Assembly (NCBI RefSeq): GCF_024972755.1
Contig: NZ_CP087724.1
Location: 2,108,001-2,172,000 of the forward strand
DNA: 64,000 bases
DNA from: Halanaeroarchaeum sp. HSR-CO
Lineage (GTDB): Archaea; Halobacteriota; Halobacteria; Halobacteriales; Halobacteriaceae
Direction: 5' to 3'
The notes beneath the pieces are model-generated. The model saw only the letters and a program-made list of their open reading frames with translations. It was not told the DNA's origin and made no database searches. Below, in pieces: positions 18,032 through 64,000 of this stretch. Each line of letters opens with the position of its first letter. Position 1 is the first letter of the stretch. The translations under genes were made by a program, and so were the position numbers.

Positions 18032-19405
18032 TCAGTCGTCGCTCGTCGACCGGACGATCCGACCGGAACGAGACGGGGAGATACCACGCTCTCTGGCGTA
18101 CTCGGCGAGCACCTCGTACTGAACATCGAGGCGCCGAACGCGGTGGGATTCTCGGAGTGCTGGGAACTCGTCTGCCGAGTAGAACAGGTAATCGGTCGTC
18201 GCCAGGGTGTAGGTAGCCTCGGGGTCGATCGGTGCACCACCGACACTCGCCTCGCGGAGCGCGTGTGCCTCGACGTCCCAGACGAGTCGAGCGCCGCTCA
18301 CGTGGGCGTGCCACCAGTCGGGTTCGGCGAACCGAAGGTCGCTCTCGGCCGCACCCGCCAGAACGGCCCGCAGTTCCTCGCCGGTGAGTTCGGCGACGCT
18401 GACCGGTTCCTGGAACGGAACGACGCTCACGAGGTCGGCGACGGTCACCGCCCCTTCGAGCGGTGGGCCATCCCGGACACCACCGCTGTTCTGGAGACCG
18501 ACGTCCGCATCGGCGGCCCAGCGATAGGCGTCCGCGACGAAGTTCCCGATCCGGCTCTCGCCCCGGAAGACGGCCGTCTCGGTCCGGACGATCGGCTCGT
18601 CGACGTGGCCGACCACCTCGTCGAGGCCGGCCGACGAGAGGCGCTCGCGCAACCGGTCGCGGACCGACTCCACGACGGGTGCATCAGCCACCGCGTGTCG
18701 AGTGACGCTTCCGTCCTCGAGATCGATCTCGAGGAGGACCTCGCCACCGGATCCCGGTCGTGTGAGGATCGTTCCGTCGATCCGCTCGATACGCTCGCTG
18801 GGCACGTGCCCACCCAGGACCGCATCGACGTCCACGGTCGCGGCGAGTTCCTCGTCGCCGGTTCCGAGGTGAGAGAGCGCGACGATCGCGTCGACGTCCT
18901 GCTCGCGTAGGTCCCGGGTGGCCTCCCTGGCCGCCGCAATCGGATGGGTCACGTCGAGTGGTTCTGCGGCGGGGTTCAACGCGGGCGTCGCGTCGTCGAG
19001 GACCCCGAAGATCCCGACACGGGTACCAGCTCGTTCGACGACGGTCCACGGTTGCACTCCGACCGACGCCCCGAACTGGCGGCCGTCGAGGGTGACGTTG
19101 CTCGAGACCCAGGTCTGTGGCGATTCGGCGACGATGTCCCGGGCCGCCTCGAGGCCGTAATCGAAATCGTGGTTGCCGAACGTCTCGACGTCCGGGTCGA
19201 GCGTCCGGTAGAGGTCGAGGGCTTGCCGACCGTCGTGGACCAGGGAGACGACCCCGGGAGCGGTGTTGTCCCCGGACCCGAGGACGATCGGGGCCGAGCC
19301 GTCGTCGGTTCGCAACCGGCGGACGAGACCGGCGATCCGCGCCGCTCGTTCGGGGTCGTCGTAGGCGTTCTCCAGATCGGAGTAGTGGAGCAGTCGCAGC
19401 GACAC
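18032..19405 (-). CDS. 5'-nucleotidase/UshA-family metallophosphatase
   Basis: This is a two-domain calcineurin-like phosphoesterase. The N-terminal metal domain has GSGDN, GNHDFDYG, SHLG and GGHVPSE motifs. The first motif reads SDLEN where most family members have D-x-H, so a glutamate replaces the usual histidine ligand. The C-terminal 5'-nucleotidase domain has RIGNFVADAYRW, LQNSGGVRDG and VVPFQEPV. There is no signal peptide, so it should be cytosolic. The GTG at 19405 (VSLRLLHYSD) is chosen because a gataaat box lies about 28 bases upstream; ATG 19429 would fall on that box. Confidence 0.85.
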   Translation of the reverse strand: MSLRLLHYSDLENAYDDPERAARIAGLVRRLRTDDGSAPIVLGSGDNTAPGVVSLVHDGRQALDLYRTLDPDVETFGNHDFDYGLEAARDIVAESPQTWVSSNVTLDGRQFGASVGVQPWTVVERAGTRVGIFGVLDDATPALNPAAEPLDVTHPIAAAREATRDLREQDVDAIVALSHLGTGDEELAATVDVDAVLGGHVPSERIERIDGTILTRPGSGGEVLLEIDLEDGSVTRHAVADAPVVESVRDRLRERLSSAGLDEVVGHVDEPIVRTETAVFRGESRIGNFVADAYRWAADADVGLQNSGGVRDGPPLEGAVTVADLVSVVPFQEPVSVAELTGEELRAVLAGAAESDLRFAEPDWWHAHVSGARLVWDVEAHALREASVGGAPIDPEATYTLATTDYLFYSADEFPALRESHRVRRLDVQYEVLAEYARERGISPSRSGRIVRSTSDD

Positions 19406-57784: not shown

Positions 57785-59104
57785 ATGGGCGCAACAGACT
57801 GGCTCACCGACCGACTCAAGATCGATGGCGAACGGCGGATGCTCGGGAAGGCCTTCCCGGCGGACGACTCGTTCCTGCTGGGCGAGGTGGCCCTGTTCTC
57901 GTTCGTCATCATCGTCCTGACGGGCATCTTTCTCGGGGCGTTCTACGAACCGAGTTCTGCCGAGGTCACCTACCAGGGTGCGGTCTCCCAGTTCCAGGGC
58001 GACGAGATGCCGGCGGCGTTCGTCAGCGTGCTCCACATCACCTACGGCGTCCCATTTGGCATGTTCGTCCGACGGCTTCACCACTGGGGCGCGCAGTTGT
58101 TCATCGCCTCGCTGGGCTTGCACATGCTCCGGGTCTTCTTCACCGGCGCGTACCGCAACCCTCGGGAGATCAACTGGGTGATCGGGAGTTTGCTGGCGAT
58201 CCTCGCGATGCTCGCGAGTTACACGGGGTACTCGCTCCCCTACGACGAGTTCGCGACCACCGCCACGGGCATCGGCTACAACATCGCCCTCGCGGTCCCG
58301 CTCGTCGGCGACTTCCTGGCCCAGCTCGTCTTCGCCGGGGAGTTCCCCGCTAGCGGCACCATCCCCCGGCTGTTCTTCTTGCACGTCGTGGTCATCCCGC
58401 TTGCCATCGCGGGCCTGCTCGCGGCCCACATGCTCGTCCTGGTGAAACAGAAACATACAGAGGGGCGACGCTCGACCGAGGACGCGGAACTGGCGGGCGT
58501 CGACGAGGACGACGATTCCGTGGTCATCGGCCTGCCGCTGGTCCCGAACCAGGCGGCGGTCTCGATGGTGGTCTTCTTCCTCACCGCGGCCACGCTCGCG
58601 TTGCTCGCCGGATTCCTGCCGGTCCACAACGTCGCGGCCTACGGCCCGAACGACCCCGCTGGGACCCCTGCCATCGTCATGCCGGACTGGTTCCTGATGT
58701 GGCTGTACGGCTTTTTGAAGATCATCCCCTCGTGGTTCACGTTCCACGTCGCCGGCGTGGAGTTCAACACCGAGTTCTGGGGCGGCGTGTTCCTCTCCGG
58801 TCTCGTCTTCGGCCTGCTGATACTCTGGCCGTTCCTCGACCGGACCGACGGGGAACGACACTTCAGCGCCGATCCGCTGTCGCGACCGTTCCCGACGGCC
58901 GTCGGCGTCGCCGGCGTCGTCATGATCCTCGTCGCCTCGCTGGCGGGTATGAACAACCTGCTGGCGAGCGCACTCGGGGTGAGCACCGGCGCAGTCACGC
59001 CGATTCTCACGGTCCTCGTGGTCGTGGTCCCGATTCTGGCCGGCGTGGGAACCTACATCCTGGCGTCCGGCGCCCCGGCCCGAGGAGGTGGGCGGGGTGA
59101 CTGA
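57785..59104 (+). CDS. narC: Cytochrome b of the nar operon
   Basis: NarC is a diheme b-type membrane cytochrome related to the bc1 complex, which together with NarB links the quinone pool to nitrate reductase. The 439-residue protein has about eleven hydrophobic helices. Two histidine pairs sit on helices B and D ([38 protein letters not shown]). A Qo-like region ([18 protein letters not shown]) lies in the second half. The start is ATG 57785; a GTG at 57779 overlaps the narB stop (GTGA) and is an equal alternative. It overlaps orf4. Confidence 0.93.
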
Positions 59105-59282
59105 CGTCGCCCTCGCCGGTCGAACGTATCGGTTCCTGGACGTAGCGACGAAACTCGCTGGCGTCGCCCTGCTCGTCGGGGCACTCGAACTGGGCATCGC
59201 ATCGGCTCCGGGCGCCACGCTCGCACTCGCGGGCGCGGTTCTCGGCGTCAGCACCGTCTTCGTCACGGAGGAAACTCGATGA
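59097..59282 (+). CDS. Small membrane protein of the nar operon (orf4)
   Basis: This 61-residue protein has two hydrophobic segments ([18 protein letters not shown] and [18 protein letters not shown]) and matches ORF4 of the haloarchaeal nar operon in place and size. The GTG at 59097 overlaps the narC stop (GTGA), and its TGA overlaps the narG ATG (ATGA), so it is embedded in a coupled translation chain. The function is unknown; it may be a structural subunit. An alternative GTG lies at 59088. Confidence 0.75.
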
Positions 59283-62137
59283 GCGAACAACAGCAATCCA
59301 CAGACATCGACTCGAGACGTCGCGACTTCTTGAAGGGGCTCGGCGCGACCGCAGCGGTCGGCGCGAGCGGCCTGGGTGCGGCGAGCCAGGCCGCACAGAT
59401 GAACCGCCTCCAGGTGGTCGACGACCCCATCGGAGACTACCCCTACCGCGAGTGGGAGGATCTCTACCGCGATCAGTGGGACTGGGACTCGATCGCCAGA
59501 AGCACGCACAGCGTGAACTGTACCGGCAGCTGCTCTTGGAACGTGTACGTCAAAAACGGCCAGGTGTGGCGCGAAGAGCAGGCCGCCGACTATCCACGGA
59601 TCAACCAGGATCTCCCGGACCCCAACCCGCGCGGCTGCAACAAGGGCGCGTGTTACAAGGACTACGTCCACGGTGCCCAGCGGGTGAAATATCCGCTTAA
59701 ACGGACGGGCGAACGCGGCGAGGGGAAATGGAAGCGCATCTCCTGGGACCAGGCCCTCGACGAGATCGCCGAAGAAGTGCTCGATACGGTCGAAGCCGGT
59801 GATTACGACGGCATCAGTGGGTTCACGCCGATCCCCGCGATGAGCCCCGTATCGTTCGCGTCCGGGACCCGGATGATCAATCTGCTCGGTGGCGTCAGCC
59901 ACTCGTTCTACGACTGGTACTCGGATCTGCCACCGGGGCAGCCCCAGACGTACGGGTTCCAGACCGACAACTCCGAGAGTGCGGACTGGTACAACGCCGA
60001 TTACATCATCGCGTGGGGGTCGAACATCAACGTCACCCGGATTCCGGACGCGAAGATGTTTCTGGAGTCCCGGTACGACGGAGCGAAGACGGTCGGGGTC
60101 TTCAGCGACTACTCACAGACCGCCATCCACACGGACGAGTTCATCAGCCCGGACCCCGGGACGGACGCGGCACTGGCGCTGGGGATGGCGCGGACGATTA
60201 TCGAAGAGGGGCTCTACGACGAAGCCCACGTCAAAGAGCAATCAGACATGCCGCTTCTCGTCCGCGAGGATACGGGCAAATTCCTCCGGGCGTCGGAGGT
60301 CACCGGCCTCTCCGGCAACGAGAAGACGATGGTCATGCTCGACGAGGCGGGGGCCATCCGTACGGCGCCCGGCTCGCTGGGGGTTCGAGCGGGCGAGTTC
60401 GACCCCGACTCCTCGATCGAACTGGATTTCGATCCCCAGCTATCCGTCGACCAGACGGTCGATACGACCGACGGCAGCGTCCGCGTCCGGACCGTCTGGG
60501 AGCGCCTTCGAGAGCAGCTCTCGGACTACGAGCCAGACGACGTCTACGAGATTACGGGCGTGGGCGTCGAGACGATGCAGCGGATCGCCCGTGAATTTGC
60601 TGACGTCGAGAAGGGCAAGATCATCCACGGGAAAGGCGTCAACGACTGGTTCCACAACGACCTCGGTAATCGGTCGATCCAGCTCGTCGCGACGTTGACC
60701 GGAAACATGGGTCGGAACGGGACCAACGTCGACCACTACGTCGGCCAGGAGAAAATCTGGACGGTCAACGGCTGGAAACACCTCTGTTTCCCGCACCTCG
60801 ACAAGACCGGTACTGGCCCCCGTGGAATGCCGACGACGCTCTGGACGTACTACCACTCCGGCATCACCGAGAGCGATCCGAAACTGGAGTCGCGAATCGA
60901 GGAGTCACTCGAGAAAGAGTGGATGCCAATGTATCCCGAGGAGCGCTCGGACGGTAGCCGACCCTCCCCGAGTATCTTCTTCGTCTGGCGTGGAAACTTC
61001 TACAACCAGGCGAAGGGCAACAAGCCGGTTCGCGACGTTCTCTGGGAGAAACTCGATCTCGTCGTCGACATCAACTTCCGGATGGATACCACGGCGAAAA
61101 ACGCCGATTACGTCCTTCCAGCGGCCTCCCATTACGAGAAACACGACCTCTCGATGACGGACATGCACACGTGGATCCATCCGTTCACCCCCGCGATCGA
61201 ACCGCTCGGGGAGTCCAAACCGGACTGGGAGGTCTTCCGCGATCTCGCAGCGCGCATTCAGGAACTGGCTCGCGAACGCGGCGTCGGCCCGATCGAGGAC
61301 CGGTCGTTCGACCGCACGATCCAACCGGCGTCGGTGTACGACGATTACGTCAAGGATTGGCTCGACGACGAAGCGGGCGCCCTGGAGAACGGGAAAGCCG
61401 CCGCGGAGTTTATCCTCCGCAACTCGGGCGAGACGAACCCGCCGGATAGTGACGAGCAGATCACCTTCGACGACACGGTCGAGCAGCCCCAGCGGTTCCT
61501 CGCCAACGGCGGGCACTGGACGTCGGACCTCAACGAGGGCGAGGCCTTCGCGCCGTGGAAGGATTTCGTGCAGGACAAGGAGCCGTGGCCGACGTTCTCG
61601 GGACGCCAGCAGTACTACATCGATCACGACTGGTATCTCGAGGACGGCGAAGAGCTACCCACCTACAAGGAACCGCTCGGAGAAGAGAAAGCGGACGAGT
61701 ACCCACTCCGGTATCTCACACCGCATGGCCGGTGGTCGATGCACTCGACCTGGCGGGACGACAAGTACATGCTCCGTCTGAACCGCGGCGAACCGGTGTT
61801 GTATATTCACCCCGACGACGCCGAGTCACGGGACATCGAGGACGGCGACACGGTCCGCATCTACAACGACCTCGCGGAGATCCACGCAATGGCGAAATAC
61901 TACCCCAGCAGTCAGCGCGGCAGCGTCAGGATGAACTTCTCCTGGGAGGACTACCAGTTCCCGGATCAGGGGAACTTCAACAGCGTCACGTCCATGGATC
62001 TGAAGACGACCCAGATCGTCCAGTATCCAGAAGACACGGGCGAGCACCTCCACTTCTTCCCCAACTTCTGGGGTCCCACCGGCGTCAACAGCGACGCACG
62101 CGTGCAGATCGAGCTGGCCGAAGGGGGTGAGCGGTGA
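59279..62137 (+). CDS. narG: Nitrate reductase catalytic subunit (pNarG type)
   Basis: NarG reduces nitrate to nitrite at a Mo-bisMGD cofactor. The 952-residue protein starts with a Tat signal (DSRRRDFLKGLG), so the active site faces the outside, as in other archaeal NarG. The FS0 cluster ligands are His77, Cys81, Cys85 and Cys120, the HX3CX3CX34C pattern of NarG. Asp236 in SADWYNADYIIAWGSN is the likely Mo ligand. The C-terminal MGD-binding domain has RYLTPHGRWSMHST. Translation is coupled on both sides: ATGA with orf4, and GTGATGA near narH. Confidence 0.95.
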   Translation: MSEQQQSTDIDSRRRDFLKGLGATAAVGASGLGAASQAAQMNRLQVVDDPIGDYPYREWEDLYRDQWDWDSIARSTHSVNCTGSCSWNVYVKNGQVWREEQAADYPRINQDLPDPNPRGCNKGACYKDYVHGAQRVKYPLKRTGERGEGKWKRISWDQALDEIAEEVLDTVEAGDYDGISGFTPIPAMSPVSFASGTRMINLLGGVSHSFYDWYSDLPPGQPQTYGFQTDNSESADWYNADYIIAWGSNINVTRIPDAKMFLESRYDGAKTVGVFSDYSQTAIHTDEFISPDPGTDAALALGMARTIIEEGLYDEAHVKEQSDMPLLVREDTGKFLRASEVTGLSGNEKTMVMLDEAGAIRTAPGSLGVRAGEFDPDSSIELDFDPQLSVDQTVDTTDGSVRVRTVWERLREQLSDYEPDDVYEITGVGVETMQRIAREFADVEKGKIIHGKGVNDWFHNDLGNRSIQLVATLTGNMGRNGTNVDHYVGQEKIWTVNGWKHLCFPHLDKTGTGPRGMPTTLWTYYHSGITESDPKLESRIEESLEKEWMPMYPEERSDGSRPSPSIFFVWRGNFYNQAKGNKPVRDVLWEKLDLVVDINFRMDTTAKNADYVLPAASHYEKHDLSMTDMHTWIHPFTPAIEPLGESKPDWEVFRDLAARIQELARERGVGPIEDRSFDRTIQPASVYDDYVKDWLDDEAGALENGKAAAEFILRNSGETNPPDSDEQITFDDTVEQPQRFLANGGHWTSDLNEGEAFAPWKDFVQDKEPWPTFSGRQQYYIDHDWYLEDGEELPTYKEPLGEEKADEYPLRYLTPHGRWSMHSTWRDDKYMLRLNRGEPVLYIHPDDAESRDIEDGDTVRIYNDLAEIHAMAKYYPSSQRGSVRMNFSWEDYQFPDQGNFNSVTSMDLKTTQIVQYPEDTGEHLHFFPNFWGPTGVNSDARVQIELAEGGER

Positions 62138-63180
62138 TGAGCCAGAGTACTAGCCTCGCAGAAGGGATCGACCATCAGGTCGCGATGGTCATGGACCTGA
62201 ACAAGTGTATCGGCTGCCAGACGTGTACGGTGGGCTGTAAGACGACGTGGACGGAACGAGAGGGGACCGAGTACATGTACTGGAACAACGTCGAGACCAA
62301 GCCCGGCAAGGGGTATCCCAGAGATTGGGAACAGAAAGGCGGGGGGTGGCAATCCGAATCCCGGTCCGAACTGAACAATGGCGAATTACCGCCCAAAGAG
62401 GACTACGGTCGGCCCTGGGAGTTCAACTACGACGAGGCCCTCTTCTCGCCGAGTACCGAGGCCTTGCGTCCGCAAGGAGAGGATCCCGAGTGGGGACCGA
62501 ATTGGGACGAGGATCAGGGTGCTGGGAAACATCCGAACTCCCAGTACTTCTACATACCCCGCATCTGCAACCACTGCACGCACCCGACCTGCGTGGAGGC
62601 GTGCCCGCGGAAGGCGCTGTACAAGCGTTCCGAAGACGGCGTGGTCCTCGTCGACCAGGACCGCTGTCGTGGCTATCGCTACTGCGTGGAGGGCTGTCCC
62701 TACAAGAAGGTCTACTACAACGCGGTGAAGAAGACCTCCGAGAAGTGCATCTTCTGTTACCCCCGCATCGAAGGCGAAGGACCGGATGGCGAGACGAAAG
62801 CGCCCGTCTGTGCGGAGGAGTGTACCACCCAACTCCGGATGGTCGGGTACCTGGACGACCGCGAGGGGCCCATCTACAAACTCGTCGAACAGTACGAGGT
62901 GGCACTGCCGCTCCATCCGGAGTACCAGACCGACCCGAACATCTACTACATCCCGCCGTTCGCGCCGCCGCAGATCGACGCGGAGGGCGAGACGACGGAG
63001 TTCGATCGGATCCCCATGTCGTACCTCGAAGACCTCTTCGGCGACGGAATTCACGACGCCATGGATACCATCGAGCGAGAGCGCGCCAAGGTTAACCGTG
63101 GCGGCGACAGCGAATTGATGGAAATGTTGACGAGCGAGAATCCGGCCCAGCAGTATCGGTTGGAGGTGTTCGACGAATGA
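62137..63180 (+). CDS. narH: Nitrate reductase iron-sulfur subunit
   Basis: NarH passes electrons through four Fe-S clusters to NarG. The 347-residue protein has ferredoxin-type cysteine groups: CIGCQTCTVGC, CNHCTHPTCVEAC, CRGYRYCVEGC and CIFC. In the third group a tyrosine replaces a cysteine, the pattern for a [3Fe-4S] cluster. There is no signal peptide; it is probably exported attached to NarG. The start is ATG 62137, with a GTG at 62134. The last codons (EVFDE) and stop are duplicated in the array that follows. Confidence 0.95.
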   Translation: MSQSTSLAEGIDHQVAMVMDLNKCIGCQTCTVGCKTTWTEREGTEYMYWNNVETKPGKGYPRDWEQKGGGWQSESRSELNNGELPPKEDYGRPWEFNYDEALFSPSTEALRPQGEDPEWGPNWDEDQGAGKHPNSQYFYIPRICNHCTHPTCVEACPRKALYKRSEDGVVLVDQDRCRGYRYCVEGCPYKKVYYNAVKKTSEKCIFCYPRIEGEGPDGETKAPVCAEECTTQLRMVGYLDDREGPIYKLVEQYEVALPLHPEYQTDPNIYYIPPFAPPQIDAEGETTEFDRIPMSYLEDLFGDGIHDAMDTIERERAKVNRGGDSELMEMLTSENPAQQYRLEVFDE

Positions 63181-63239
63181 GCCGTGCGTGGAATTCGTCG
63201 AGCTCTCCAGAACGCGTTCTGGAGGTGTTCGACGAATGA
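63177..63239 (+). CDS. Mini-ORF 1 in the narH junction array
   Basis: This 20-codon frame starts at an ATG overlapping the narH stop (ATGA) and ends EVFDE-stop, the same five residues that end NarH. It is created by the repeat unit; the middle residues (WNSSSSPERV) come from the hairpins. Its stop overlaps the next ATG. It is probably translated by re-initiation if the mRNA is polycistronic, and is probably not a functional protein. It may serve only to carry ribosomes across the array. Confidence 0.4.
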   Translation: MSRAWNSSSSPERVLEVFDE

Positions 63240-63355
63240 GCGAATCGATTTCGTCGAGCCGGCCGGACCGTAGGTCCGGACTCGTTCGACGAATGAGCGT
63301 GAGCGAATTCGTCGAGCTTACCAGCGCTCCGCTCTGGGAGGTGTTCGACGAATGA
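63236..63355 (+). CDS. Mini-ORF 2 in the narH junction array
   Basis: This 39-codon frame starts ATGAGC in an ATGA overlap with mini-ORF 1, and again ends EVFDE-stop. It covers two repeat units: the third junction copy is read in another frame (VRRMS), so no stop occurs there. Its stop overlaps the ATG of the next gene (ATGA at 63352-63355). The chain narH, mini-ORF 1, mini-ORF 2, orf7 is thus unbroken in stop/start overlaps. A real peptide function is not indicated by the sequence. Confidence 0.4.
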   Translation: MSESISSSRPDRRSGLVRRMSVSEFVELTSAPLWEVFDE

Positions 63356-64000
63356 GCCATCGGAAGACGGTCGCGGCCGTGGGCGTTCTGGCGATCACTC
63401 TCGTGGTGGCCGCCGTCGCCCTCCCCTCGATAGCGGGCGGCGTCCCGGCCAACCAGGTCCCGGTCACCGACATGCCCGGCGAGGGCGACACGCTTGCCTC
63501 GCCCACGGCGGACACGTGGGAGGATGCCGAAGGCACCGAGGTCCCGATGGCGAGTGCGCCTTCTGGCCTCCCGAATGCCGGTAGCGTGGCCACCGACGCC
63601 GTGGACGTCCAGGCGGCACGAACCGACTCGGAGCTGTACGTCCGGATGGAGTGGGACGACGCGACGGAGAACACCAGCGCCGACGAAATCCAGGCCTTCG
63701 CCGACGGTGTCGCGATGCAGATCCCGGTCGACGCCGAATCGGAACCCGACATCGCACTCGGTAGCCAGGAAACGCCCGTCAACGTCTGGTTTTGGAGCGC
63801 CGACGGGGGGACCGAAGAGCTACTCGCCGGTGGACAGGGGTCCATCACGGAGATGAGCGAGAGCACCGTCGAGACGGAGGCCGTCCACGAGGACGGCACC
63901 TGGACCGTGGTGATGCACCGCTCGCTGGCCGTCGACGATGAGAACAGGGCCGCCCTCGACACCGGCTCCGACGTCGACGTCGCCTTCGCCGTCTGGGACG
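63352..64000 (+). CDS. Exported haem-binding-type subunit (orf7 of nar), 3'-truncated
   Basis: The gene starts at ATG 63352 and runs off the window end, so about 216 codons are visible. An N-terminal hydrophobic signal (TVAAVGVLAITLVVAAVALPSI) is followed by an acidic, beta-rich domain with VDVQAARTDSELYVRMEWDDAT and VNVWFWSADGGTEELLAGG, resembling the haem-b-binding gamma subunit of the ethylbenzene dehydrogenase/chlorate reductase type. Such a subunit occupies the ORF7 place after narH in haloarchaeal nar operons and would link NarGH electrons to haem. The start is fixed by the ATGA overlap with mini-ORF 2. Confidence 0.8.
   Translation, partial: MSHRKTVAAVGVLAITLVVAAVALPSIAGGVPANQVPVTDMPGEGDTLASPTADTWEDAEGTEVPMASAPSGLPNAGSVATDAVDVQAARTDSELYVRMEWDDATENTSADEIQAFADGVAMQIPVDAESEPDIALGSQETPVNVWFWSADGGTEELLAGGQGSITEMSESTVETEAVHEDGTWTVVMHRSLAVDDENRAALDTGSDVDVAFAVWD

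Follow-up and report, generated by a model that had tools for sequence, protein, structure and literature searches.

Mycobacterial interspersed repetitive units (MIRUs) form tandem arrays and are not known to have dyad symmetry. These units insert at start codons and carry an internal open reading frame (ORF) coupled at -4 nt (Supply et al. 1997, via the review PMC12548453). Here we analyzed an array of three hairpin-forming units lying between narH and orf7 in the nar operon of Halanaeroarchaeum sp. HSR-CO, near the end of a 64,000-nucleotide stretch of contig NZ_CP087724.1 (the window, whose numbering is used unless a genome stretch is named). A sequence-only reading of the window had taken this array for an undescribed kind of element, a claim that was not supported, since MIRUs already combine insertion at start codons with a coupled internal ORF. 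MIRUs are the nearest known kind, and the nar arrays appear to resemble them in function.

As in MIRUs, the array units are located at a stop/start of translational coupling, with ATGA at both ends of the mini-ORFs, the small internal ORF overlaps both neighbours (28 of 29 spacers by a strict rule and all 29 within 5 nt), and the repeat is tens of nucleotides long (units of 57-59 nt, Tandem Repeats Finder [TRF] score 190). On the other hand, MIRUs are a dispersed sequence family, whereas the local gene end is the source of the nar units, which occupy one site in their own genome. The nar units are also strongly palindromic, which to our knowledge MIRUs are not, and their host is archaeal rather than mycobacterial.

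Other described systems share part of these properties. The termination-reinitiation (TeRe) gene pairs of Haloferax volcanii (PMC6728339; PMC10666635) belong to the same archaeal class and show overlaps of -4, -8 or -1 with the Shine-Dalgarno (SD) sequence within the upstream ORF, but there two genes overlap directly, whereas relay mini-ORFs are interposed in the nar array. Rickettsia palindromic elements (review PMC10969869) are likewise palindromic inserts that stay in frame, and translation goes on; however, they sit inside genes and are fused to the protein, while the nar inserts are intergenic and form separate ORFs. Bicistronic design cassettes (PMC12548453) use a short leader ORF that brings the ribosome to the following gene and opens up RNA structure, although they are engineered and have a single leader, whereas the nar array is natural, repeated and within an operon. 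Repetitive extragenic palindromic (REP) sequences and bacterial interspersed mosaic elements (PMC3733652) are also clustered palindromic repeats between genes, but REPs are dispersed palindromes that carry a conserved tag and go with a RAYT transposase, and the nar units are not dispersed in their own genome. A search of the available literature found nothing relevant on haloarchaeal repeats of the narH/orf7 array kind. No stop/start relay is known to us for REPs.

Organization of the narH/orf7 junction

The nar operon lies at the window's end with the gene order Rieske protein, narG, narH and orf7 (the name orf7 is taken from PMC7754194). Between the narH stop codon (63178-63180) and the orf7 start (63352) there are 171 nt, equal to three units, and the region contains the following features.

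62134-63180, + strand: narH, nitrate reductase beta subunit, C-terminus YRLEVFDE-stop, Pfam Fer4_11 (4.6e-28)
63162-63180, + strand: junction copy 1, SD GGAGGTG, ATG at 63177, TGA at 63178; end of narH and start of mini-ORF1
63177-63239, + strand: mini-ORF1, 20 codons, peptide MSRAWNSSSSPERVLEVFDE, C-terminus LEVFDE-stop
63193-63237, + strand: hairpin of unit 1, -28.4 kcal/mol, with covariation
63221-63239, + strand: junction copy 2, SD intact, ATG at 63236 being the start of mini-ORF2
63236-63355, + strand: mini-ORF2, 39 codons, C-terminus WEVFDE-stop
63249-63294, + strand: hairpin of unit 2, -30.0 kcal/mol
63277-63298, + strand: junction copy 3, CGGACTCGTTCGACGAATGAGC, SD lost (GGACTCG), ATG at 63293 read through within mini-ORF2
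63307-63353, + strand: hairpin of unit 3, -22.4 kcal/mol
63337-63355, + strand: junction copy 4, SD intact, handover to orf7 via ATGA
63352-64000 (on to 64176 in genome stretch L028), + strand: orf7, ethylbenzene-dehydrogenase-related haem b protein, Pfam EB_dh (1.3e-37)

The sequence TTCGACGAATGAGC is present in four exact copies at 63169, 63228, 63285 and 63344 (spacing 59, 57 and 59). No other exact copy was found in the 2.79 Mb genome, and permitting one mismatch revealed one further site. Each interval between copies contains one inverted arm TTCGTCGA (63194, 63250 and 63308), and the palindromic core differs from unit to unit. TRF placed the array at 63161-63357 with a period of 59, the stronger of the two rows returned for the 64 kb window. 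Coordinates, TRF and pattern search confirmed the three units, with their repeated junction, inverted partner and differing palindromes, that the sequence-only reading had reported. Its statement that every unit repeats the junction holds for the four exact copies of TTCGACGAATGAGC but not for their function, as copy 3 has no SD and its ATG is internal to mini-ORF2. Similarly, its description of constant flanks and variable cores is valid within this genome, but across species the flanks track the host's own narH end.

Both mini-ORFs have ATGA overlaps at both ends, giving a chain narH, mini-ORF1, mini-ORF2, orf7 with three stop/start handovers (narH/mini-ORF1, mini-ORF1/mini-ORF2 and mini-ORF2/orf7). 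The ORF coordinates agree with the two ATGA-linked frames ending in EVFDE-stop that had been proposed, and the chain bears out the idea that the array expands a coupled junction yet retains its stop/start continuity. The codons of the conserved narH C-terminus YRLEVFD include CTGGAGGTGTTCGA, which places GGAGGTG 7-8 nt upstream of the orf7 start. The narH 3' end (GGAGGTG...ATGA) is thus at once the C-terminus of the protein and the predicted reinitiation site for orf7.

Junction spacers in haloarchaea and their open frames

A search for narH across 117 related genomes and the GTDB species collection yielded, after removal of duplicates, 61 distinct narH proteins. The narH/orf7 junction was a plain short overlap in 32 of them, so that the plain state envisaged for relatives by the sequence-only reading does exist, and contained a spacer of 26-404 nt in the other 29. 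Along the narH tree, 13 changes of the spacer state are required, at least 12 of them forced by supported branches, and plain and expanded junctions are both present within each of Haloarcula, Haloferax, Halosimplex and Halorhabdus. The closest nar-bearing relative (G003, narH 81% identical) has three near-identical 57-nt units in the same place and a single 57-codon ORF. In Halomicrobium katesii the array consists of six units, five of them near-identical, with one 139-codon ORF, and two strains of Haloferax larsenii have the same spacer length and the same bridge with a different sequence. Inserts at the narH/orf7 junction thus appear to have arisen repeatedly across haloarchaea.

A spacer was considered bridged under the strict rule when it contained an ORF chain whose start overlaps the narH stop and whose final stop overlaps the orf7 start. 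This was the case for 28 of the 29 spacers; the remaining one, from Halosimplex aquaticum, is off by a few nucleotides and passes when an offset of up to 5 nt is accepted. The bridge is a single ORF in all bridged spacers except that of the window, where it is the two-ORF chain. Ordinary same-strand spacers (26-420 nt, five genomes) were bridged in 28 of 411 cases (Fisher 7e-30), and a control set in which an ATG overlaps the upstream stop gave 12 of 41 (Fisher 2.6e-10), kinship being uncorrected in both comparisons and the background rates being derived from sampled stretches of about 400 kb per genome. At least two of the 28 bridged controls are not true background, one being the narH of G003 and another an apparent genuine small gene. 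Dinucleotide shuffling at constant length and with unchanged ends, in which the right frame is already granted, gave an expectation of 17.8 of 29 (P = 2e-8), and in a reduced set of 22 loci 20 were bridged against 14.7 expected by shuffling (P = 1.7e-4). Because the loci are related these P values are overstated, and the 12 or more separate changes are a safer guide.

A 30th case, outside the sample, was found in a plasmid record of Halomicrobium urmianum, with a 244 nt spacer and an 83-codon bridge. At an unrelated junction, between rdgB-like and SDR genes, all five spacers were bridged (27-79 codons) and two relatives had a plain junction; in one locus the bridge ends in AEWYGER, identical to the end of the upstream gene. 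The first member of this set came from the bridged sample cases and so is not independent, while the other four are.

The bridging peptides have a pI of 11 versus 4.5 for narH and contain 18% Arg and 14% Ser, a composition near that of the other frames. Substitutions by codon position in seven related pairs (some loci shared) were flat (53/50/59), and the closing frame switches among relatives, with an overlap of -4 in Haloarcula vallismortis and of -8 in its sisters. The sequence-only reading had named one mark of ordinary small genes, that the mini-ORF peptides show long independent conservation; instead, the peptides differ between species and their codon positions are unconstrained. Since the peptides are species-specific and without codon-position bias, it is probably the open frame that is kept rather than a protein.

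An SD motif precedes orf7 in most plain junctions and the first bridging start in every spacer locus. Among junction copies used as starts, 15 of 17 have GGAGG or GAGGT and the remaining two GGGGGTG, whereas GGAGG and GAGGT occur in none of the 21 read-through copies (0 of 15 distinct; used versus unused P = 9e-9). The used class is inflated, because homology and in part the SD itself guided the choice of the orf7 starts, but not that of the window's internal used start. Both SD states are seen in the window, where copy 2 (used) is intact and copy 3 (read through) has lost it. The best explanation of these patterns is that the passage of ribosomes is preserved, the mini-ORFs acting as relays and not as protein genes.

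A proposed relay under strict reinitiation and alternative explanations

In Haloferax volcanii coupling was strict in nine of nine overlapping pairs and the SD was not functional for de novo initiation (PMC6728339); a gap of 22-23 nt abolished reinitiation, and the TeRe spacing ranges from about -8 to +6 nt (PMC10666635). The handovers of narH and the array fall within this range, with the SD inside the upstream ORF. Since haloarchaeal ribosomes reinitiate only over overlaps or very short gaps, an unbridged insert would be expected to silence orf7, as published for other gene pairs. A simple set of TATA-like patterns gave no match in any spacer that would point to an internal promoter.

We propose, with a probability of about 0.74, that the array is a locally templated, hairpin-forming expansion of the junction which is tolerated since it is translatable from end to end. 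Its anatomy suggests that an insertion or duplication copied the narH junction in between the two genes, together with its inverted partner and a palindromic core. The units would then have multiplied through tandem duplication, as the near-identical units of two relatives indicate. As to origin, we favour a route in which fold-back template switching preceded tandem duplication, a mobile element being the alternative. Selection would retain those lengths and sequences whose ORFs end within or next to the following start, and the SD only at junction copies that act as starts.

Several points weigh against this proposal. The control gene calls are crude, the orf7 starts were picked partly by SD and many spacer loci are related. 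In L074 and L117 the spacer could alternatively be an N-terminal extension of orf7. The support from shuffling is moderate in the reduced set, and some short spacers bridge under any shuffle. SD sequestration, considered as a distinguishing trait, was rejected as spacer and plain loci were no different (P = 0.12), a result that lends no support to gating by the hairpin.

The hairpin array could instead be an adaptive RNA regulator, either a processing/stability hairpin or an attenuator, tuning orf7 relative to narGH, with the frames being secondary. The array RNA folds at -100.1 kcal/mol versus -80.2 +/- 4.0 for shuffles (z = -4.95), a 21-unit alignment has 87.7% of its cells paired and double changes in 37 cells (13.9 after shuffling), and in the window SD and start lie within stems. 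However, the outer arms track the narH end of the species concerned (in Halomicrobium, for instance, ATCCTCGA with TCGAGGAT), and covariation may also stem from such copying; the data fit a conserved structure and a copied local gene end alike. The hairpin is also less universal than the bridge, because several bridged spacers have no array (L021, L023 and L114 show neither gene-end repeat nor array in their sequence, and L117 only a short plain duplication) and spacer and plain loci do not differ in SD accessibility. Rfam covariance models gave no match to the array up to E = 1. A regulator of this kind is unlikely. As to origin, and compatible with the relay, a dispersed mobile hairpin repeat resembling REPs or miniature inverted-repeat transposable elements could have inserted at the junction. 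In Halosimplex and Halomicrobium katesii each genome yielded 8-11 matches to a similar core, GCTCGnnAGAGC..GCTCT, mostly non-nar and in intergenic multi-hairpin stretches; in Halosimplex and Halomicrobium this core is one module of dispersed repeats, and inverted gene-end copies are found at other genes too. In contrast, the genome of the window has units at the nar site only, their arms fit the local gene end and not a fixed terminus, and a 464 kb sample of this genome contained no second array of such kind, which leaves a mobile origin rather doubtful. A dispersed mobile element within this genome was rejected, as exact and near-exact pattern searches gave no other copies. The GAGCTC..GGTGTTCGA form, searched for in 17 genomes, was hairpin-like at the nar junctions of the window's genome, G003 and G079, and its other matches look like chance.

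That the mini-ORFs are real small-protein genes, as open frames reaching 139 codons, with an SD and an ATG start, might indicate, is very improbable, given that the peptides vary by species, are basic and as rich in Arg and Ser as other frames, have flat codon positions and switch frames; moreover, the Pfam matches of the two peptides scanned were only sub-threshold. Two annotated plasmid records, NZ_CP078065.1 and NZ_CP084092.1 (L262 and L263), list no gene at the narH-orf7 spacer despite ORFs of 60 and 83 codons, their tables being incomplete. Assemblies can collapse or expand short tandem repeats, and the sequence-only reading had allowed for such an artefact; this is hardly credible here, since the units are mutually different, a homologous three-unit array occurs in a relative and related ones in independently assembled genomes of many genera, and the two Haloferax larsenii strains keep spacer length and bridge with different sequences.

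More tentatively, and with somewhat less than an even chance, haloarchaea may possess a general type of self-templated junction expansion, in which the end of the preceding gene is copied (X, loop, inverted X, hairpin, X, where X is the gene end) and which strict termination-reinitiation would filter genome-wide, inserts at coupled junctions surviving only with relay ORFs. If so, such expansions would be the archaeal equivalent of MIRUs, derived locally, and would record the reinitiation rule in natural genomes. The 29 spacers, many gained or lost separately and all passable, look like an evolutionary version of the laboratory reinitiation experiment. The arrays offer natural constructs with one, two or more handovers, may account for unannotated operon ORFs, suggest that MIRU-like inserts occur beyond mycobacteria and raise the question of which mechanism copies a gene end both forward and inverted at one place.

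Other gene-end copies and neighbouring ORFs

In L078, L083, L092, L237 and many related spacers the hairpin loops are often GAGCGAAGCGA, which contains GCGAAGC, an unusually stable DNA mini-hairpin, and may hint at a single-stranded DNA step. The only other clear gene-end duplication in the 464 kb sample of the window's genome (L037:3267-3332; G000:C1 about 968,270-968,330) repeats about 31 nt of a gene 3' end just past the stop, without a hairpin; the gene, judged by its C-terminus, is presumably GatB/GatE-like. In Halomicrobium (G079/G120; L166:9927-10100, L171:4920-5190 and L225 about 15,500 on the minus strand) gene ends of at least 27-32 nt are repeated 95-190 nt downstream, flanking an insert with a TTTTTCGCCCACGTTTTTGC-like motif that looks like another gene-end-duplicating element. 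Hairpin clusters behind dnaK-like and thermosome-like genes (L237, minus strand, and L193; names read off the sequence) hold inverted gene-end copies.

Directly upstream of narG, a 64-aa ORF (59088-59282) has an ATGA overlap with the narG start. It is resembled by a 59-aa ORF in G003 (L180) and looks like a genuine small gene. A short tandem repeat with a period of 21 and 2.1 copies was detected by TRF at 18556-18601 of the window.
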